Assembly (NCBI GenBank): GCA_945881915.1
Contig: CAMCVW010000002.1
Coordinates: forward strand, 1-64,000
Source: Thermoflexus hugenholtzii JAD2
GTDB lineage: Bacteria > Chloroflexota > Chloroflexia > Chloroflexales > Roseiflexaceae
DNA: 64,000 nucleotides
Reading direction: 5' to 3'
In this document: positions 1,851 to 30,831 of the stretch, one piece after another
Numbering within the stretch: the stretch's first letter is position 1
How the letters are laid out: each line of letters starts with the position of its first letter
Notes under the pieces: model-generated
Told to the model about the DNA's origin: nothing
The model's database searches: none
What the model saw: the letters and a program-made list of their open reading frames with translations, nothing else
Program-made: the position numbers and the translations under genes

Positions 1851-1887
1851 CGACGTCGTTGGCGCCACGCCAACGTTACGCTCTAAC
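1815..1887. repeat. Tandem repeat of the Rrf2 gene's 3' end
   Basis: Bases 1815-1851 (end of the Rrf2 gene with its TAA) are repeated at 1852-1887 with five mismatches and one missing base. The second copy folds as a perfect 8-bp hairpin (CGTTGGCG / CGCCAACG, 3-base loop, 1857-1875) and its TAAC end coincides with the stop of the convergent gene. It may act as a terminator between the two convergent genes. Confidence 0.75.
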
Positions 1888-2668
1888 GCATCACATATGC
1901 CAACATCTGTGCGACGAGTTCGGCAGATTCAGTGTTATGGTACCGGAATTGGGCAGGCTGCTTGAGTCGTTCCGCATGAATTATCACTGCATTCGTGTAT
2001 GGGTCAACGCCAATCACATCATCAAGTGCAATCGTCATGGTTTTGCGATCGCCTTTAAAAATTACCCGCTGCGACGTGATAACCAAATCACCACGAGCGA
2101 CTTCTACGGTCGCGGTCACCGGGACCGAATGACCACGGCTACTCCCAAATCGGTACGACACACCCCGTGCAATCCGAAAAGAAATACCGCGGTTTCCGCC
2201 AACAGTCTCTCTCCGAATCACCTTTTCTTCAAACAGTCCAACCGGCTCCGACCAATATGCCAGTTCGCCGCCCTTGAGTTGTACACCGGCGAGGGTAATC
2301 GGTGTGATCACGCCACGCGACAATTCGTAAATTTTCCGTTGCGTGTGCAGGGTACTCAGGAGTTCACCGACTGTTTGTGGGGGAATCTGCGTCAGGGCGA
2401 CGATATCGTTGATGGTCTTCAACTCGCTGTCACTGAGCTGTCCATCCGTTTTCGCAGCAGCTGCAGCATCTTGCAGAATCCGCGTACCGACCTCGCGTAC
2501 ATCGTCTGCGGTCAATCCATGTGTCGTGACCTCAAAACGTAATGCATGAATTTCTTGTGGAGTGAGCACCATATCCGCAATTGCAGTTTTGAATAGCTCC
2601 CGCAATGCATCTTTCCCTTGTGAACGCTGAAGAGATTCTTTGATTGAATCTACGAGCTTTTGAAACAT
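1883..2668 (-). CDS. TerB-like helical domain plus PH/GRAM-like domain protein
   Basis: A 261-residue protein with no signal peptide. Residues about 20-110 are all helical and rich in acidic turns (LTPQEIHALR, KTDGQLSDSELKTIN), resembling the TerB-like helical domain linked to tellurite and stress-response systems. The C-terminal half has the signature of bacterial PH/GRAM-like domains: GDLVITSQRVIFKG followed by IALDDVIGV. ATG 2668 is chosen because GAGGG precedes it; an upstream start would add 14 non-conserved residues. It diverges from the vWA-PP2C-kinase genes across a 101-base gap, so a shared control region is likely. The domain calls come from pattern recognition and the role is inferred from context. 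Confidence 0.6.
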   Translation of the reverse strand: MFQKLVDSIKESLQRSQGKDALRELFKTAIADMVLTPQEIHALRFEVTTHGLTADDVREVGTRILQDAAAAAKTDGQLSDSELKTINDIVALTQIPPQTVGELLSTLHTQRKIYELSRGVITPITLAGVQLKGGELAYWSEPVGLFEEKVIRRETVGGNRGISFRIARGVSYRFGSSRGHSVPVTATVEVARGDLVITSQRVIFKGDRKTMTIALDDVIGVDPYTNAVIIHAERLKQPAQFRYHNTESAELVAQMLAYVMR

Positions 2669-2769
2669 AATACCCTCACGACGCAATACTGTAGCTATGA
2701 TACCATTCACTCATGCAACAAAAGTAGCGTTCATATCGTCTGTGACGCGAGCAATAAAAAGGAGCACGT

Positions 2770-3426
2770 ATGACAACTATTCCTGATGTCACTTTTGATC
2801 CCACAAATCCGGATCCTCGTTGTGCTTGTATATTGATTCTCGACACATCGGGTTCGATGCACGGTGAGAAAATCAATCAACTCAACCAAGGTCTGGTGGC
2901 TTTTCGCGATGCATTGCAATCCGATTCGGTCGCGCAATCACGCGTCGAGATAGCCATCGTCACCTTCGGTCCCGCCCAACTCGTGCAAGACTTCACCACT
3001 GCTGGGAACTTCAACCCACCCACCCTCACGTCGAGTGGCGATACCCCACTCGGAGCAGCCTTGCAGCAAGGGCTCGATATGTTGGCACTGCGCAAGCAAG
3101 TCTACAAAGACAACGGAACGCCATACTACCGACCATGGGTTTTCCTCATTACCGATGGAGCTCCCACCGACGGCGACGCTTGGAAGGCTGCAGCGACGCG
3201 GATTATCGATGAAGAAAACAAAAAAGGCGTAGCCTTTTTTGCCGTCGGGGTCGAAGGCGCAGACATGCAAGTGCTCAAACAATTGTCTACACGCGAACCA
3301 TTGACACTCTCTGGGGTACACTTCCGTGAAATGTTTGTTTGGCTGTCCTCAAGCCTCCAGAAAGTTTCGCAGTCACAACCGGGCACCCAAGTTCCGCTCG
3401 CTCCTCCCACGTGGAATCAGGTCTAG
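2770..3426 (+). CDS. vWA domain protein (YegL/TerY-like)
   Basis: A 218-residue protein that is essentially one von Willebrand factor A domain, close to the length of E. coli YegL. A full metal-ion-dependent adhesion site is visible: DTSGSM (D-x-S-x-S, about residues 26-31), a threonine in GDTPLG, and the aspartate in ITDGAPTD. No signal peptide or membrane segment, so it is cytoplasmic. GGAG precedes the ATG. It heads a run with a PP2C phosphatase and, further on, a Ser/Thr kinase, the same trio as E. coli yegL-yegK-yegI and the TerY-phosphatase-kinase sets described in Ter stress systems. Likely an adaptor or scaffold in that signalling unit. Confidence 0.88.
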   Translation: MTTIPDVTFDPTNPDPRCACILILDTSGSMHGEKINQLNQGLVAFRDALQSDSVAQSRVEIAIVTFGPAQLVQDFTTAGNFNPPTLTSSGDTPLGAALQQGLDMLALRKQVYKDNGTPYYRPWVFLITDGAPTDGDAWKAAATRIIDEENKKGVAFFAVGVEGADMQVLKQLSTREPLTLSGVHFREMFVWLSSSLQKVSQSQPGTQVPLAPPTWNQV

Positions 3427-3476: not shown

Positions 3477-4289
3477 ATGAACTGGCGTATCGCAAAAGCA
3501 TCAATCATCGGTACCGGCCACGACAAGACAGGGATGCCCTGCCAAGACAGTCATTATGTCATGCAGTTGCGCGACACCCTCATCATTGCCGTTTCCGACG
3601 GGCTCGGATCAGCCAAACTGTCACACGAGGGCTCACGGATTGCCTGTGCATCAGCAGTTGAAGCCTATGCGAACACCGTCGAGGCTGCATTCAATACAAC
3701 CGCACTCACACTAGCCGCGGACCAACACACACCTGCTCCGTTCAACTACGAAAGTGCACTCCAGACCGCATTTTTCAGTGCACGGAACGCCCTCGAACGG
3801 GAATCCAACCGCACCCAACTGCCACTTCGCGACTACGCATGTACCTTACTTGTAGCCGTCATCGAGGCCGAATCGTGGTACAGCATGCATATCGGTGACG
3901 GCACCATCGTTGGGCTTTACACACAACAGCCTGCAAAAACCCTCAGCATCCCCGAAAACGGAGAGTTCATCAATTCCACCACCCCCATCACCAGCGACGA
4001 CTACCAATCGCATATGCGCTATGCCCACGGGCACGAATTGTTGGCTGGTGTGGCATTGCTGTCTGATGGTGTCACTCCCATGTGCATCAACTACAAAAGT
4101 GGCTCAGCGTATGATGGGTTTTTCAGACCTTTACAAAGCTGGCTCGCAGATGCAACCCAGTTATCGGGCATCGACGAATCACTCAAACAGTTCCTCGATA
4201 CACCCAAAATGCGCCAAAAATCAGATGACGACATGACGCTTGTTTTGGCCTTGCGGGAACATAACAGTGAAACGGTACATTCTCTCTAA
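3477..4289 (+). CDS. PP2C-family Ser/Thr protein phosphatase (YegK/PphC-like)
   Basis: A 270-residue cytoplasmic phosphatase of the PP2C (PPM) class. The metal-site motifs occur in order: QDSHYV near residue 22, SDGLGSAKLSHEGS near residue 38, IGDGTIVG near residue 140, SDGVTPM near 195 and SDDDMTLVLAL near the end. ATG 3477 follows GAGAGA; the frame is open further upstream but those codons overlap the vWA gene and the hairpin. It is close in length to E. coli YegK/PphC, a phosphatase paired with the kinase YegI. Here it should reverse the phosphorylation done by the kinase at 5776. The MOSC gene begins 10 bases after its stop. Confidence 0.9.
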   Translation: MNWRIAKASIIGTGHDKTGMPCQDSHYVMQLRDTLIIAVSDGLGSAKLSHEGSRIACASAVEAYANTVEAAFNTTALTLAADQHTPAPFNYESALQTAFFSARNALERESNRTQLPLRDYACTLLVAVIEAESWYSMHIGDGTIVGLYTQQPAKTLSIPENGEFINSTTPITSDDYQSHMRYAHGHELLAGVALLSDGVTPMCINYKSGSAYDGFFRPLQSWLADATQLSGIDESLKQFLDTPKMRQKSDDDMTLVLALREHNSETVHSL

Positions 4290-4299
4290 CTGGTGGAAT

Positions 4300-4839
4300 A
4301 TGCAGATTCTCAGTGTGAACATAGGGCAAGAACGGCCGTTCGACCACACAAAGCCAGAGAAAACATCCGGGATTTTCAAAATTCCTACCTTGTCGCCGAT
4401 TGAAGTATCGACAAACGGGCTTTTCGGTGACGGCATTGTGAACACCAAAAACCATGGTGGTGTCGACCAGGCGGTGTATGTTTACGGGCGTCCTGACTAT
4501 GACGCATTCGAGGCAGAGCTTGGGTATACATTGCCGAACGGGATCTTCGGTGAGAACCTCACCATCTCGAACCTCAGCAGCGCAACGTTTACCATCGGCG
4601 ACCGATTGCAGATAGCAGATGTTGTCCTCGAAGTAACCGCGCCACGCACACCATGCGAATCGCTCAACGCCCGCATGCGAGACAAACAGTTTGTCAAACG
4701 ATTTTTTGCCGCAGACCGTCCCGGTTTTTATTGTCGCGTGCTTGGCACAGGCACCGTACAAACGGGGGATGACGTACAGTATGTGCCGTATCACCGCCCT
4801 GGAATAGGCATCAGTGAAGCGCATCGCATTATGCGCTAG
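4300..4839 (+). CDS. MOSC domain protein (YiiM-like)
   Basis: A 179-residue protein opening with MQILSVNIGQ, then NHGGVDQAVYVYGRPDYDAF, GIFGENLTI and a TPCESL cysteine motif, the pattern of YiiM-type MOSC proteins. MOSC domains carry the molybdenum cofactor on a conserved cysteine; YiiM-type proteins are linked to reduction of N-hydroxylated bases. The cysteine in TPCESLNARM is in the expected place. ATG 4300 is preceded by GGTGGA. It follows the PP2C gene by 10 bases, so it is in the same transcript, although it has no known link with protein phosphorylation. Confidence 0.85.
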   Translation: MQILSVNIGQERPFDHTKPEKTSGIFKIPTLSPIEVSTNGLFGDGIVNTKNHGGVDQAVYVYGRPDYDAFEAELGYTLPNGIFGENLTISNLSSATFTIGDRLQIADVVLEVTAPRTPCESLNARMRDKQFVKRFFAADRPGFYCRVLGTGTVQTGDDVQYVPYHRPGIGISEAHRIMR

Positions 4840-5181: not shown

Positions 5182-5757
5182 ATGGGTATGCTCAATGAAA
5201 TACTGGCACACAACGCAGACTACGTACAGACGCGTCAATACGAATCTTTGCAGACCGATAAATTCCCCGACAAAGGGCTTGCGATTCTCGCATGTATGGA
5301 TGCACGCTTGGTCGAGTTGTTGCCGCAAGCACTCGGAATTCGCAATGGCGATGGAAACCTCATCAAAAATGCAGGTGCGTTGGTCACAGCCCCATGGGGT
5401 TCCGTGATGCGGAGTCTATTGGTTGCAGTGTATGCATTACGTGCAGAAGAAATCTGTGTTATTGCTCACTATGACTGCGGGATGAGCACGATTGACCCGT
5501 CAGCAATTTTGGCAGAAGCGCAAACTCGTGGCATATCTGACGACGTGATTCGCACGCTTCGTGTCTCAGGTATTGATCTCGATGGTTTTCTCAAAGGTTT
5601 TGCAAACGTCGAAGACAGCGTCCGGAACACCTGTATGATTGTTCGCCAGCACCCACTCCTGCCCCGCGATGTGCCAGTGCATGGCTTGATCATAGACCCC
5701 TCAACGGGTCGTTTAGACACCATTGTGGATGGGTACGCGGTCATGCAGGCAGAGTAA
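5182..5757 (+). CDS. Beta-class carbonic anhydrase
   Basis: A 191-residue cytoplasmic zinc enzyme interconverting CO2 and bicarbonate. The zinc ligands are visible as Cys38 (in ACMDARL, with the Asp40-Arg42 dyad), His96 and Cys99 (in AHYDCGM); the glycine-rich stretch NLIKNAGALV is also typical. The length fits short prokaryotic beta-CAs of the Rv1284-like type. GGGG precedes the ATG at good spacing. The kinase gene starts 18 bases after the stop, so the two may share a transcript. Bicarbonate supply and the signalling genes have no established link, so this may simply be a passenger gene. Confidence 0.92.
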   Translation: MGMLNEILAHNADYVQTRQYESLQTDKFPDKGLAILACMDARLVELLPQALGIRNGDGNLIKNAGALVTAPWGSVMRSLLVAVYALRAEEICVIAHYDCGMSTIDPSAILAEAQTRGISDDVIRTLRVSGIDLDGFLKGFANVEDSVRNTCMIVRQHPLLPRDVPVHGLIIDPSTGRLDTIVDGYAVMQAE

Positions 5758-5775: not shown

Positions 5776-8526
5776 ATGACACGCTACACCACTCCTTCAA
5801 ATACCATAATCACAACCACCAAAAAACTCGGTGAGGGCGGGGAGGGTGCGGTATTTGATGTGGCTGGGCAGAGTGCTCTCGTCGCAAAAATCTACCACCC
5901 GGCGCGATTAAACGCTTCTCTTGCGGCAAAAGTCATTGCGATGACGCGCAACCCTCCCGAAGACGCCACCCGGGCGTCACTCAATCATGTATCCATCGCA
6001 TGGCCAACAGACGTCCTGTACTCCGGCAAAAAGTTTGTGGGCTATACCATGCCCAAAATCAAGAAGTCTGACGACCTGTATGATCTGCTTCAGCCGCAAC
6101 AACGTGCCAAAGAGCATAGCGGATTGAATCACCGGCATCTCTACCGCACTGCCCGCAATCTCGCCATTGCAATGGATGCAATTCATCGCAAAGGCTACGT
6201 CGTCGGTGATGTCAACTTCAAAAACGCACTGTTCAATGACGATGCGCTGATCACCATGGTGGACTGCGACTCTTTGCAGGTCACGGATAGCGCTGGTGTG
6301 GTGCATCATTGTCTCGTCGGTGTGCCCGAATACACGCCGGCTGACCTGCAAGGTAAGGATTTCGGACGGGTCACGCGCACACCGAATCACGATGCTTTTG
6401 GGCTGGCAATTTTGATTTTTCAGATGCTGATGCAGGGATTCCATCCCTTTGCAGGCAGGCCAAAACCCGGGGTACCAGATGTCGAGCAGGCGCATATTTA
6501 CTGCATCTCAAAAGGGATTTTTCCGTATCTCGTGGGGCAACCCTACGAACCGCCACCTGCCGCGCCATCGATGCTTTGCTTGCCTGTATTGCTACAACAG
6601 CAATTCGAACGCGCATTCACCCAACCAAACGCACGACCCACGCCCAAAGACTGGGCCAATCTTCTTGCGATGGTCGAAACGCGCCTCGTACCATGTCCAA
6701 ATGACCAGTCACATTGGTACCCGAGCGACGGCCATTGCGTAATCTGCGAGATTGACTACAACGTCGGTCGGCGCATACGAACGAGTCCGAAACCGAGTAC
6801 CACCGTACAGATGCAGGTGCCGCTGCCACCACAACCCAGCATTACAACGGGTCCGTTGCGTCCTTCTGCAATATCCAAACCTCACGTCGCTCCACCCACG
6901 CCCCAAACTCCAGCGCTGAACAAACCTACTGTCCCGCGCACTGCACCGGCAACCCCCGTTGCACCGGCAAATCCAGCACCATCACGCCCTACACAAACAA
7001 CTCCAACAGTACAGTCGCCGTCAATACCTACGCAGACGCTTCCTCCGCTTGTGTCACCGAATCCTGTACGACCGACACCTCGTACTACCCCCTCAGTTCC
7101 TGCACCACAAACGGGTAGATCAGTACCGTTCGACATCATTGCAACAATCAGCACGTACGTCCAACAGCATCGCATGATGGTGATCCCTATTGCAGTGATT
7201 TTCATGGCGTTGGTCATTGTCGTGGTGTCGAATTTCAATTCTGCAGGTGACTCTTCTACTGCCGCTGTCTCCGTTCCAAGCAATGCAGAACCTACAATAG
7301 GCATCATTGCTGCTACGAGGACACGCGTTGCACGCGCTACAACGGTGCCTGCAGCGCCGATAGAAGGTGCAAATGCAATAATCCCGACAGACGGTATAGG
7401 AGCTTGCACACCTGTCAACATAGTGGCCGCACACTGGAAGATGCTGTCTCCCGCGAAGCAGTCTCAAATGCTGAAAAATCTCGAACAATTGCGTACAAAA
7501 CCGTATAAAGCAGACGTATTACAACTCTCCGGAGCAGATCTCATCGGCGGGGGAAGTGGAACACAATTTCCAGATTTACAAGCGTTATGCACCGATGTGC
7601 GCTTGCTCCAAAGCAATCCTCTGCGTTATGACGCGTCGAGCCCGCTCCAAGGGAGCCAACTCTGCACGAAACCTACGTGCACCTTGGTAGCACCAGAGTA
7701 CCGTCTCGTATTTGTAAAAAACGATGTCGCGAGCAAATCGAATTTCTATAGCTCAGATAGTCTTTTGGAACATTTTTTTGACCAAAACAACCCACCTGCT
7801 ATCGCATCAGTAGGACTCCAATTACAGGACGCAAGAGTCCCAGGGACATTTGAATCACTGCTCACCCCATTTGTGCAGATTCCACTACTCGAGATGAAGG
7901 TTAACAATCCTATTTGGACAACCAAAATTGGCGACAGCGAACAGAGAATGGTAGATGTCAATGTAGGTGATTTATTCTACACGGGCGAAGAGGGGCTTTC
8001 ACCTGCACGTGAGCCATCCCGACAGAATCAATACTATCGCATCGTCAAGGTACCACTACAGCGTTGGACAGACGGTGTAACAGTCAAGCCGAGTGACTAC
8101 ATCAACGGATTCGAGAAAAACATCAACATGACCAGAGGTCTCATTGAATCGGTCATCATGGCTGATTCCACCTCTATAGAAATTCGCTATGCTCCAGGGT
8201 TACCAAAAGAGCTTGCCGATGCAATTGCACCAGTTGCACTGCACAGAAACGAGCTTCTCACCAATAGCATGGGTGAATGGCTGTTCAGTGGTGCGGGGAA
8301 TTCATTTCGTCTCGAGCACATCACTGACTCGAGAAAATCATTCTCAATCGATATGCCAGCCAACGTGCAACAATTAGCCCGTCAAATACGTATGGGTACG
8401 TATGATGTTGCAATCATTGATCCTGAATATGCCCCCGAGGTATTGGACATACTTTTGGGAGTAGATTTGACAGCGTACACAATGATGCTCATTCCAAGCG
8501 GGACTACATGGGTCATTCAGAATTAA
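5776..8526 (+). CDS. Transmembrane Ser/Thr kinase with solute-binding-like ectodomain
   Basis: A 916-residue protein in three parts. Residues 10-270 are a protein kinase of the YegI-like branch: glycine loop GEGGEGAVF (19-27), Lys38 in VAKIY, catalytic Asp145 and Asn150 in GDVNFKN, and DCD (163-165) in place of DFG. Residues about 340-460 are a Pro/Thr-rich linker. One membrane helix lies at about 467-487. The outer 430 residues look like a family 5 (oligopeptide-type) solute-binding protein: WTDGVTVKPSDYINGFE is close to that family's W-(S/T)-D-G-x-x-x-x-x-x-D motif, followed by residues typical of its middle domain. It probably senses an extracellular ligand and signals through phosphorylation, opposed by the PP2C at 3477. 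The next gene, 10 bases on, is a separate binding lipoprotein. The kinase call is sure; the ectodomain call is a pattern match. Confidence 0.85.
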   Translation: MTRYTTPSNTIITTTKKLGEGGEGAVFDVAGQSALVAKIYHPARLNASLAAKVIAMTRNPPEDATRASLNHVSIAWPTDVLYSGKKFVGYTMPKIKKSDDLYDLLQPQQRAKEHSGLNHRHLYRTARNLAIAMDAIHRKGYVVGDVNFKNALFNDDALITMVDCDSLQVTDSAGVVHHCLVGVPEYTPADLQGKDFGRVTRTPNHDAFGLAILIFQMLMQGFHPFAGRPKPGVPDVEQAHIYCISKGIFPYLVGQPYEPPPAAPSMLCLPVLLQQQFERAFTQPNARPTPKDWANLLAMVETRLVPCPNDQSHWYPSDGHCVICEIDYNVGRRIRTSPKPSTTVQMQVPLPPQPSITTGPLRPSAISKPHVAPPTPQTPALNKPTVPRTAPATPVAPANPAPSRPTQTTPTVQSPSIPTQTLPPLVSPNPVRPTPRTTPSVPAPQTGRSVPFDIIATISTYVQQHRMMVIPIAVIFMALVIVVVSNFNSAGDSSTAAVSVPSNAEPTIGIIAATRTRVARATTVPAAPIEGANAIIPTDGIGACTPVNIVAAHWKMLSPAKQSQMLKNLEQLRTKPYKADVLQLSGADLIGGGSGTQFPDLQALCTDVRLLQSNPLRYDASSPLQGSQLCTKPTCTLVAPEYRLVFVKNDVASKSNFYSSDSLLEHFFDQNNPPAIASVGLQLQDARVPGTFESLLTPFVQIPLLEMKVNNPIWTTKIGDSEQRMVDVNVGDLFYTGEEGLSPAREPSRQNQYYRIVKVPLQRWTDGVTVKPSDYINGFEKNINMTRGLIESVIMADSTSIEIRYAPGLPKELADAIAPVALHRNELLTNSMGEWLFSGAGNSFRLEHITDSRKSFSIDMPANVQQLARQIRMGTYDVAIIDPEYAPEVLDILLGVDLTAYTMMLIPSGTTWVIQN

Positions 8527-8536
8527 AGAGGTATCA

Positions 8537-9703
8537 ATGCGACGTACATATGTGGGAATGGCAGTGTTGTTTAGTATATTCATTATGTCTTGTGGAACTA
8601 TTTCACAGCTGACCGATACTGCCTTACCAACGGCGCAGGTTATCGTCATTACTGCCACCCCTGAGGCGAATCCGATCGCAGCACCCACAGATACTACCGT
8701 GATTGAAGAGCCCACTCCTGCAGCAGATCTCGGCGAATCGACTTTGGTTGCGGTGCAGTCGCGCGGCATGTTGCGCTGTGGCGTCAATGCAGACCTGCCA
8801 GGATTTGGGCTGTACGATGCAGTACGTAAGCGCTGGAGCGGATTTGACGTTGATTTTTGTAAGGTTATTGCCGCTGCAGTACTTGGTGACCCGAGCAAAG
8901 TTGAATACATACCCGTAACCACAGCAGACGGTCCCAACGAACGTATGAACGCGGTCCGCACCAAAATGATTGATGTCCTCATCCGAAATACGACCTGGAC
9001 CGCTTCACGAGATGGATCGCAGTTGATGTTTGCGCCGACGACGTTCCATGATGGACAGACATTCATGGTGCGTGTCGACAGCGGAATCAAAACGCTCGAA
9101 GATTTGCAGAACAAACGGATCTGCGCTGCCAGTGGCACCACCACGGTGCTGAACCTTCGTGATGATTTTGCAGCCCGTGATATTCCTATCGATTTATTAG
9201 AAATTGATGGCGAAAAACTCTATCCAATGTATGGTGCCGGCGAGTGCGACGCGGTCACCAGCGATAGCAGTCAATTATCAGTCCAACGCATCAACCTCAA
9301 AAATCCAGACGCACACATCGTTCTGGGCGATCGCATCTCACGCGAGCCGCTCGGTCCGGTCGTTGCCGAAGGAGACGACCAGTGGTTCGACATCGTCAGT
9401 TGGAGTGTGTACGCCACAATGTATGCCGAAGAACTGCGTGTCGACCGGTCGAATGTCGACGAAGCGATTGCTTCGAGCACCGATCCGCGCGTGTTGCGCT
9501 TGTTGGGAGTCGACGGCAAAATCGGCAGCCAGTTCGGGCTATCACCGGACTTTGCCTATCAAATCATCTCGAAGGTGGGGAACTACGGAGATATCTACAA
9601 CGATAATCTCGGCCCCGATACGACATTCAATATCGATCGTGGTCCGAACAAAGCATGGAATCTGGGGGGTGGGGGCGTGCTCGCTTCGCCTCCGTTCCGT
9701 TAA
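8537..9703 (+). CDS. Family 3 solute-binding lipoprotein (amino-acid type)
   Basis: A 388-residue exported lipoprotein: basic start, hydrophobic core, lipobox ending IMSC at about residue 19, then a Thr/Pro-rich tether. The mature part reads as a polar amino acid binding protein of the AapJ/BztA kind, with GMLRCGVNADLPGFGLYD, WSGFDVDFCKVIAAAVLGD and the later YGAGECDAVTSD. No ABC permease or ATPase lies nearby. It is 10 bases behind the sensor kinase, so it may supply ligand to the kinase ectodomain instead of to a transporter; that is inference. AGAGG precedes the start, and a strong terminator follows the stop. Confidence 0.9.
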   Translation: MRRTYVGMAVLFSIFIMSCGTISQLTDTALPTAQVIVITATPEANPIAAPTDTTVIEEPTPAADLGESTLVAVQSRGMLRCGVNADLPGFGLYDAVRKRWSGFDVDFCKVIAAAVLGDPSKVEYIPVTTADGPNERMNAVRTKMIDVLIRNTTWTASRDGSQLMFAPTTFHDGQTFMVRVDSGIKTLEDLQNKRICAASGTTTVLNLRDDFAARDIPIDLLEIDGEKLYPMYGAGECDAVTSDSSQLSVQRINLKNPDAHIVLGDRISREPLGPVVAEGDDQWFDIVSWSVYATMYAEELRVDRSNVDEAIASSTDPRVLRLLGVDGKIGSQFGLSPDFAYQIISKVGNYGDIYNDNLGPDTTFNIDRGPNKAWNLGGGGVLASPPFR

Positions 9704-28750: not shown

Positions 28751-30349
28751 TTACAACCCTACGGCTGCGCCATCTTTGCGCGGATCTGATCCTGCGTAGG
28801 AGACGCCATCTTGGACCACAATAATCTGGCCACCGCCAAACCCCCCGACTGCTGCTGGTACAACATCATGACCCAATGCACGTAACTGTTGCTGTACGCT
28901 TTCATTGTGTTCGAGAGAAATGGTCTTTTTGCCTTCATATGGTTCGAGCAATTCATAGCGCGGCGCATCGAGTGCTTCTTGGGGATTCATGTCGTAATCA
29001 ATCATATTGACGAGCATCTGGGTGTGCCCCTGAGGCTGCATAAATCCACCCATCACACCAAAGCTTGCCCATAGTTCTTCGTTTTTGGTGACCATGCATG
29101 GAATGATTGTGTGATAGGGACGCTTCCCTGGCTCGAGCGCATTGGGATGTCCTTCCTCAAGGACAAAACACGCACCTCGATTTTGCATACAAATCCCGGT
29201 ATCCCCAGCGACAACGCCGGAGCCAAAGCCGTAATAGAGACTATTGATGAATGAAACTGCGTTTCCCCACTGATCCACAGCAGTGATATACACGGTGTCA
29301 TTCGAAATAGGAAGTTCCCCTGCAGTGACCGCTCCAACCGACTGCATATCGACTAATCGCCGTCGCGGAGCGATGTATGCCTCAGACAACAGGCCTTCTA
29401 CGGGCACTTTTTTGAATACCGGATCGGCAATGTAACGCGCCGCGTCGGCAAATGCAAGTCGCATCGTTTCGATTTGCAGATGCAATGATTCAGCAGACTG
29501 CGGGGCATACTGCCGCAGGTCGAAGCCTTCCAACAGCCGCAATGCGATTAATGCAGTGAGTCCCTGTCCATTCGGGGGGCATTCATAGACGTCGAACCCT
29601 CGGTATGATGCAGTTGCAGGGGCTATCCATTCTGATTCGTGTGCTGCCATATCCGCACTGCTGAGGAAGGCTCCGTCGCGCGCAAGTGCTTTGATAATCC
29701 GGCCTGCGAGTGCACCCCGGTAGAACGTTTCGGCACCCCCAGCAACGATTTCTTCAAACGTCTTTGCAAGCGCAGGTTGACGAAAAATTTGGCCGAGTTG
29801 TGGCGCTCTGCCATTCGGTAAGTAGGTGCTGGTCGCATCGGCGTGTAGTCGTAACTTCGCTTCTGCAGTGGCCCAGCCACGGGCAATGATCTCGCTGACG
29901 GCAAACCCGTCGCGCGCATAACGGATTGCAGGCGCGAGAATTTTGTCGAAACTCAGGTTGCCGTGTGCATGAATCAACGACTCCCAAGCAGCGACTGCTC
30001 CGGGCACCGTAATTGGGAGCACACCATTGAGCGGGATTGTTGATAATCCCCGTTCAGCAAAAACACCACGATGCAACGTCTGCGGAGCACGACCACTGCC
30101 GTTGAGCGCACGGACTTTTTTCGTTTTGGCGTCATACACCAATGCAAATGCATCACCGCCTATACCAGTACTCATTGGTTCAACGACATTGAGCACGGCA
30201 GCGGCGGCGATTACTGCGTCAGCTGCGGTGCCACCTTGTGCAAGCATCTGTAATCCTGCTTGGGCAGCGAGGGGGTGGCTCGTCGCCACAGATCCGCCCG
30301 TGCTGACGATCATTGACCGACGAGATGGATAGGCGCTCATGCTCTTCAT
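28751..30349 (-). CDS. ggt: Gamma-glutamyltranspeptidase family protein
   Basis: A 532-residue Ntn hydrolase that would transfer or hydrolyse gamma-glutamyl groups, for example of glutathione. SHPLAAQAGLQMLAQGGTAADA and the following GIGGDAF open the family; the self-cleavage site is the threonine of NDTVYITAVDQWGN at about residue 360, followed by YYGFGSGVV. No signal peptide is evident, so like many bacterial homologues of this branch it may stay in the cytoplasm. ATG 30349 overlaps the stop of the upstream thioredoxin-like gene (ATGA), showing translational coupling; ATG 30340 is an alternative. The pairing with a thiol-redox gene fits thiol metabolism. Confidence 0.92.
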   Translation of the reverse strand: MKSMSAYPSRRSMIVSTGGSVATSHPLAAQAGLQMLAQGGTAADAVIAAAAVLNVVEPMSTGIGGDAFALVYDAKTKKVRALNGSGRAPQTLHRGVFAERGLSTIPLNGVLPITVPGAVAAWESLIHAHGNLSFDKILAPAIRYARDGFAVSEIIARGWATAEAKLRLHADATSTYLPNGRAPQLGQIFRQPALAKTFEEIVAGGAETFYRGALAGRIIKALARDGAFLSSADMAAHESEWIAPATASYRGFDVYECPPNGQGLTALIALRLLEGFDLRQYAPQSAESLHLQIETMRLAFADAARYIADPVFKKVPVEGLLSEAYIAPRRRLVDMQSVGAVTAGELPISNDTVYITAVDQWGNAVSFINSLYYGFGSGVVAGDTGICMQNRGACFVLEEGHPNALEPGKRPYHTIIPCMVTKNEELWASFGVMGGFMQPQGHTQMLVNMIDYDMNPQEALDAPRYELLEPYEGKKTISLEHNESVQQQLRALGHDVVPAAVGGFGGGQIIVVQDGVSYAGSDPRKDGAAVGL

Positions 30350-30831
30350 TTGTTTGGTACCTCTACTCCCAATCCCGCCACGAGGGTATCGAATTGCGGC
30401 CGATTGACCGTACCCATTGAACGCCATACTTCGGTGCCATTTGCGTCGAAGAGGACGTATGTCGGAGTCATTTTCACACCGATTTGCGCTGCAATGGCCC
30501 GATTTTCCGCATCCCGGGCATCGAGATGGACAACACGCAGTTTGTTTTGATAGTCTTGTTCAATCCCATTCACGATGGGCTTCGAGAGCACGCAGCCCAT
30601 TCAGTATTCGGAATAGTATTCGACGAGGACTGGTTTACCGCCTTTGAGAATAGTCGGAATGTCCGCTGTCGCAGTTCGTCTTGCGTAGATTCCCATTGCT
30701 GCAAAGCCGAGGAGGACCGCTGCAATGGTCACAATTTGGATCGTATTCCAACCGGATTGATTCGCCCACCATACCGTTCCACCGAGGAAGAGTATCAGCA
30801 TCAGAATGAGTGAGTTTTGGTTGACAAACAT
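30346..30831 (-). CDS. Membrane-anchored thioredoxin-like protein with in-frame TGA at the active site
   Basis: Read through one TGA (30603-30601), this is a 161-residue thioredoxin-like protein. Two membrane helices (about 7-23 and 31-50) precede a thioredoxin fold. VLVEYYSEY, then TGA, then MGCVLSKPIV lines up without gaps to [20 protein letters not shown] of the trxA in this same window, so TGA stands exactly at the first cysteine of C-x-x-C (residue 77, partner Cys80). The cis-proline (MTPTY, Pro123) is intact and the frame runs on to an ATGA overlap with ggt. A UxxC selenoprotein is therefore likely; a recent TGC-to-TGA mutation or a sequencing error are the alternatives. A selenocysteine-type hairpin is noted separately. 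AAAGGAA precedes the start. Confidence 0.75.
30565..30579 (-). promoter_or_regulatory. Candidate bacterial SECIS hairpin
   Basis: Downstream of the TGA on the minus strand, CCCAT (30579-30575) pairs with ATGGG (30569-30565) around the loop CGTGA. The loop starts 26 bases after the TGA and has G as its second base, as in the published bacterial SECIS model (upper stem of at least 4 bp, loop 16-37 bases after UGA, G in the first two loop bases). Short stems like this arise often by chance. A competing 7-bp stem starts directly after the TGA. Confidence 0.4.

Follow-up and report, generated by a model that had tools for sequence, protein, structure and literature searches.

The signals that bacterial Ser/Thr kinases sense are largely unknown and have been called an outstanding question (PMC6069109). 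In the GlnH-GlnX-PknG system, an operon-linked family 3 amino-acid-binding lipoprotein feeds a Ser/Thr kinase, with genetic support (PMC6069109, PMC9769921). As the authors of PMC6069109 also mention other kinases linked to solute-binding proteins (SBPs) as well as single-chain SBP-kinase fusions (MSMEG_1200 type), the general idea of such a relay is already known. TerY-P triads consist of a VWA protein, a PP2C phosphatase and a Ser/Thr kinase with a C-terminal zinc ribbon (PMC11090510, PMC4978471), and have been hypothesised to be metal-sensing switches linked to restriction and defence (PMC11090510).

The locus described here lies in the window, i.e., the whole stretch of 64,000 nucleotides analysed (bases 1-64000 of one contig of a 3.09-Mb genome). 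With GlnH-GlnX-PknG it shares a family 3 SBP lipoprotein encoded in the operon; however, whereas the four-helix GlnX links the SBP to a soluble kinase in that system, kinase, helix and outer domain form one TerY-P-type chain here, and no ORF for a GlnX-like membrane protein lies between the kinase and lipoprotein genes. PknG itself is a soluble rubredoxin-kinase-TPR protein, while the window kinase reads kinase-zinc ribbon-TM-outer domain. As in the MSMEG_1200-type fusions, a kinase and an SBP-type domain occur in one chain, but by description those fusions carry SBP domains, whereas a half domain is found here together with a separate SBP. A search of the literature on TerY-P kinases, SBP-linked kinases, Chloroflexi kinases and permuted SBPs, with most subscription journals outside its scope, did not find this combination. 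What is new is the half domain derived from family 5 binding proteins (SBP5) outside the membrane, its occurrence as part of a TerY-P kinase, and an orphan clade of putative amino-acid-binding lipoproteins common to two kinase types.

Results

The kinase and its operon

Sequence and gene order identify the kinase as the third component of a TerY-P triad. VWA protein, PP2C phosphatase and kinase are encoded together, in the order of the described triads, and a zinc-ribbon motif follows the kinase domain (Table 1); this pattern recurs in six of the seven orthologues, and the remaining one has unread bases at that site. The PADLOC models gave a TerY match for the VWA protein (E 6e-4), no match for the PP2C phosphatase and matched the kinase to other kinase models. 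Unlike in described triads, the kinase spans the membrane, carries an outer domain and is followed by a lipoprotein gene; unlike in defence-linked triads, no restriction or defence genes were adjacent among the ORFs read. As compared to one MOSC gene in the window, two tandem MOSC-like genes occur in the triad operon at L012:5883-7256, and none among the listed ORFs of the triad operon at L016.

Table 1. Features of the triad operon and of the kinase it encodes (positions in the window)
Feature	Position	Strand	Basis
TerB-domain protein, divergent from triad	1883..2710	-	PF05099 E 1.8e-6
VWA protein, TerY-like, of triad	2770..3426	+	PF00092 E 1.9e-11; DTSGSM motif; PADLOC TerY E 6e-4
PP2C phosphatase of triad	3477..4289	+	PF13672 E 3.1e-44
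MOSC-domain protein; in most relatives located between PP2C and kinase	4300..4839	+	PF03473 E 1.9e-31
Carbonic-anhydrase-family protein, directly 5' of kinase	5182..5757	+	PF00484 E 3.4e-13
Membrane-anchored Ser/Thr kinase, TerY-P-type triad member, 916 aa	5776..8526	+	ORF translation; PF00069 E 2e-5, below cut-off; VAKIY, GDVNFKN, DCDS motifs
Zinc-ribbon-like motif C-x6-H..C-x2-C, kinase residues 307-324	6694..6747	+	Sequence pattern
Single transmembrane helix, kinase residues 467-485	7174..7230	+	Hydropathy
N-terminal part of outer domain, residues ~542-671, not SBP5-like	7399..7788	+	Orthologue alignment; profile score vs SBP5 at noise
Half domain of SBP5 origin (domains I/II), residues ~672-916, without lobe III	7789..8523	+	Profile comparison, predicted fold
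WTDGVTVKPSDY segment, residues 764-775	8065..8100	+	W-T-D-G at 764-767; invariant W and Y
Orphan AapJ-type lipoprotein, putatively amino-acid-binding, SBP family 3	8537..9703	+	PF00497 E 3.4e-11; 4z9n E 4.3e-73

From N- to C-terminus, the kinase consists of a kinase domain, the zinc ribbon, a Pro-rich linker, one TM helix and the outer domain. The catalytic Lys and Asp and the DFG-equivalent motifs are present in every orthologue covering those positions, on which basis the kinase looks active; by eye, the catalytic-loop Lys position is occupied by Asn. An earlier note on this DNA had described a single membrane helix followed by an outer part of about 430 residues, which agrees with our data: the 19-residue segment at 467-485 has a hydropathy of 2.98 as compared to 1.6 or less for all other segments, and the 429 residues C-terminal to it (488-916; 7237-8523) make up the outer part.

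Among 158 genomes of the class, a search with the kinase domain found the subfamily in 16 (at E 1e-30). The C-terminal parts of these proteins differ widely, comprising RCC1 and WD40 repeats as well as multi-TM and helix-hairpin-helix regions recognised by eye or from weak matches; the subfamily thus evidently swaps its C-terminal module. The genome also contains a second VWA-PP2C-kinase triad (L078:7215-13015), whose kinase of 1418 aa ends in RCC1 repeats, and related kinases with WD40, multi-TM, helix-hairpin-helix or other C-termini are found in other genomes of the class at loci L082, L081, L084, L085 and L086, where VWA and PP2C genes adjoin several of them.

The outer domain

Orthologues of the kinase were sought in 80 genomes (own included); in seven the match spanned most of the outer domain, in an eighth its tail only, and the tail of the orthologue in genome G008 was found by profile search. 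All outer-domain orthologues among the 80 genomes are confined to the genus of the window. Pairwise identity is 65-93% in the kinase part but 21-82% in the outer part, where most pairs show 21-47% and one close trio 76-82%. In three close pairs, dN was 0.10-0.15 as compared to a dS of 0.47-0.77, indicating purifying selection, which argues against a dead remnant.

The W-T-D-G motif and following segment that had been noticed by eye hold up: W223, Y234 and F238 (aligned outer-domain numbering) are invariant in 7/7 orthologues, most orthologues retain the WxDG segment, and at this motif the region aligns with genuine SBP5 proteins. A standard Pfam scan found no SBP_bac_5 (PF00496) in the window kinase at the curated cut-off, so that the eye had seen more than the scan; among the seven orthologues, one showed SBP_bac_5 (E 0.13). 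The names GDA1_CD39 (Pfam) and AfpA (NCBIfam) were obtained for the outer domain below threshold and were taken as chance. Searches of PDB sequences with the outer domain or its profile did not find an SBP (best E 0.09 and 0.53).

The profile of the seven orthologues, a shallow alignment of effectively about four lineages, scored 72.8 against SBP5 domains I/II (200 column shuffles: mean 14.8, maximum 25.9; reversed 16.8) and 62.4 against conventional SBP5 (maximum of 200 column shuffles 22.6), as compared to 15.6 against the unrelated SBP3, and a forced-global alignment was collinear up to the last residue of the kinase. Searched against 26 genomes of the family, the profile gave 42 rows, i.e., 9 orthologous, 6 from shorter paralogues, 2 unassigned and 25 others; the latter fell within profile columns 164-273 (E 5e-6 to 8e-3), those in the correct frame read as SBP5 proteins, and 8 of 8 correctly framed SBP5-like sequences matched back to the profile.

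The AlphaFold model of the outer domain is of moderate confidence (pLDDT 70.5, pTM 0.67). Among the matches listed, 50/50 Foldseek hits in the PDB were SBP5-type (best E 9.7e-5), with low TM-scores (0.15-0.30); we take them, by recognition, to be all cluster C SBPs. VIA-align likewise placed model residues 131-370 on SBP5-type structures in 50/50 matches listed, with a best Z of 8.0, values up to 8 being a grey zone by the tool's own notes; kinase residues ~672-916 often corresponded there to chain positions ~1-280 of SBP5 structures of ~500 residues. Because these structure matches agree with the sequence profile, the SBP5 fold was accepted despite the grey-zone Z, with the fold of domains I/II resting on the predicted model.

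Both the sequence profiles and the predicted model support a relationship between the outer domain and family 5 binding proteins that is limited to the first half of the latter (domains I/II), an incomplete fold. It shares with the cluster C proteins AppA, DppA and NikA the fold of domains I/II and the W-x-D-G region, but lacks lobe III, is fused to a kinase and is no secreted lipoprotein. The similarity found by profile to SBP_bac_5 or cluster C SBPs covers domains I/II and does not extend to lobe III: the kinase and all seven orthologues end where the cleft-closing lobe would start. We also considered that lobe III might be supplied by the N-terminal outer part, whose three Cys are invariant among orthologues, and rejected this, as its score against full-length SBP5 (16.2) equals noise. 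Thus, the family 5 binding fold proposed in the earlier note, for which it had suggested profile searches and structure prediction against SBP_bac_5, was recovered by both approaches for residues ~672-916, while the lobe that would complete a cleft is absent.

Among the full-SBP5 ORFs of the same genome that were read (L019, L020, L021, L047 and the window copy), none is a kinase fusion. The window copy is a conventional SBP5 gene (PF00496; 27069-28715, minus strand) that adjoins a gene resembling, by eye, gamma-glutamyltransferase (28751-30427), with no permease among the listed neighbouring ORFs. In lipoproteins at L021:1948-3882 (minus strand) as well as L032, L030, L036, L037, L043, L048 and L051, the two Pfam halves of SBP5 are swapped (profile 204-355 before 20-208), a natural circular permutation; these proteins end near the end point of the kinase outer domain, and a permease gene adjoins the copy in the same genome (L021).

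The downstream lipoprotein

The lipoprotein gene starts 11 bases downstream of the kinase gene; its product shows a lipobox-like MSC, and residues 68-378 (mature length) align with 4z9n. By sequence it thus resembles AapJ, yet no permease or ATPase gene adjoins it (AapQMP is absent from the neighbourhood) and it falls in a separate clade. Matches at E 1e-40 were found in 61 of 80 relatives (91 rows). Among the 59 of 91 rows whose neighbourhoods were read (one tblastn piece <150 aa being left out), AapQ was adjacent in 21, all 47-53% identical to the window lipoprotein, and in 0/38 others. In a tree of the rows of at least 280 aa (57/59), with the "Aap" label set by permease adjacency, the 21 AapQ-linked rows, which sit in AapJQMP transporter operons, lie on one side of a branch with support 100/99 and the orphan copies apart. 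Identity to the window copy across the genus is 69-86%. An Arg and an Asp, which we presume to be amino-acid contacts, are retained in 37/37 and 38/38 readable rows, respectively.

In 9/9 genus genomes that carry the lipoprotein, its gene comes after that of the TerY-P kinase, which was recognised by the kinase domain in 7 and, at contig edges, by the kinase tail in 2; the genomes are mostly drafts, and counts of neighbourhoods inside one genus are not independent events. In seven genomes (8 rows) of another family, lipoprotein homologues lie directly 5' of a different membrane Ser/Thr kinase. This second type has an N-terminal zinc ribbon, a standard catalytic loop, one membrane helix and an outer domain of ~83 aa (A3). 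Outside the genus, 21/29 orphan rows lack a neighbouring kinase of this kind, so that the association of the lipoprotein with kinases is not universal. The A3 domain, which has a C-x-C motif (e.g., L131:7820-8071), occurs in 45/80 genomes, including some without a lipoprotein match, and as the co-occurrence is incomplete it was not counted as support. A3 is widespread in the order and was not found in the genus of the window. At L135:2718-5307, one kinase gene is preceded by a tandem pair of orphan AapJ-type lipoprotein genes.

Discussion

The most economical reading of these data is a relay from lipoprotein to kinase, in which the lipoprotein would bind an amino acid and signal through the outer domain of the kinase, by analogy with GlnH-GlnX-PknG; we give this roughly even chances. 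Under this reading, the kinase of a TerY-P triad would have been converted into a membrane receptor. The lipoprotein would bind an L-amino acid outside the membrane and, in its loaded or closed form, dock on the outer domain, whose SBP5 half would serve as a protein-protein platform instead of a ligand trap; the single helix would relay the signal to the inner kinase, the PP2C phosphatase would reverse the phosphorylation and the VWA protein may bring the target or a metal. Against this relay, the adjacency of lipoprotein and kinase inside one genus may be inherited, and the rapid divergence of the outer domain, as compared to a lipoprotein conserved at 69-86%, is not what a tight conserved interface suggests.

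Alternatively, the outer domain may have a structural role, mediate dimerisation or be a degenerate remnant, with the kinase sensing the state of the membrane, the envelope or a metal and the lipoprotein being a mere neighbour. The great variety of C-terminal parts among TerY-P kinases fits this, as do the MOSC and carbonic anhydrase genes in the same operon and the paralogue with a shorter outer domain, which is found in three genomes and not near the lipoprotein. However, the lipoprotein follows the kinase in every genus genome that has it, its homologues adjoin an unrelated kinase type in seven other genomes, and the outer domain is under purifying selection; we therefore regard this explanation as rather unlikely. 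The paralogous kinases (L053:13778-15976, L052:6452-8620 and L054:14945-17299) have an outer domain of 230 residues, of which only the ends correspond to the long form, and are flanked by genes for secreted-looking proteins, some with DUF4352; the model of the short domain was poor (pLDDT 57.6), with nothing below E 2.4 in a fold search.

It is also conceivable that the outer domain itself senses a ligand, with domains I/II binding a peptide, sugar or metal in the absence of lobe III, or with the halves of two kinases forming one cleft. Domains I/II of SBP5 proteins hold part of the ligand contact surface, and the WxDG segment is kept in most orthologues; moreover, single-chain SBP-kinase fusions exist (PMC6069109). 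On the other hand, lobe III occurs in 0/7 orthologues, the N-terminal outer part shows no match to SBP5, lobe III included, and the would-be pocket diverges rapidly, so that we consider this quite improbable. As the cleft-closing lobe is missing throughout, the direct readout of peptide levels that had been envisaged for the kinase is unlikely; the downstream lipoprotein is a better candidate for the ligand sensor than the outer domain, and probably does the sensing on behalf of the kinase. A chance or generic resemblance of another fold to SBP5, for which the negative Pfam scan and the moderate model confidence might speak, is very improbable given a score almost three times as high as that of the best among 200 shuffles, a collinear alignment and only SBP5-type proteins among the fold matches listed.

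A bolder version of the lipoprotein-to-kinase relay is a split receptor, in which half of an oligopeptide SBP, captured by a TerY-P kinase, would act as a docking lobe for a lipoprotein from another SBP family that closes onto it when loaded with an amino acid. Both halves would be recycled transporter parts, and orphan AapJ-type lipoproteins would serve unrelated Ser/Thr kinases throughout the order as a general source of amino-acid signals; in this full form, we hold it to be unlikely and put it forward as speculation.

Overall, this locus offers a concrete input for a TerY-P kinase, which would be an extracellular amino acid presented through a lipoprotein. The lipoprotein clade that accompanies this kinase is also found beside a second kinase type, and half of a binding protein appears to have been preserved as a receptor domain.
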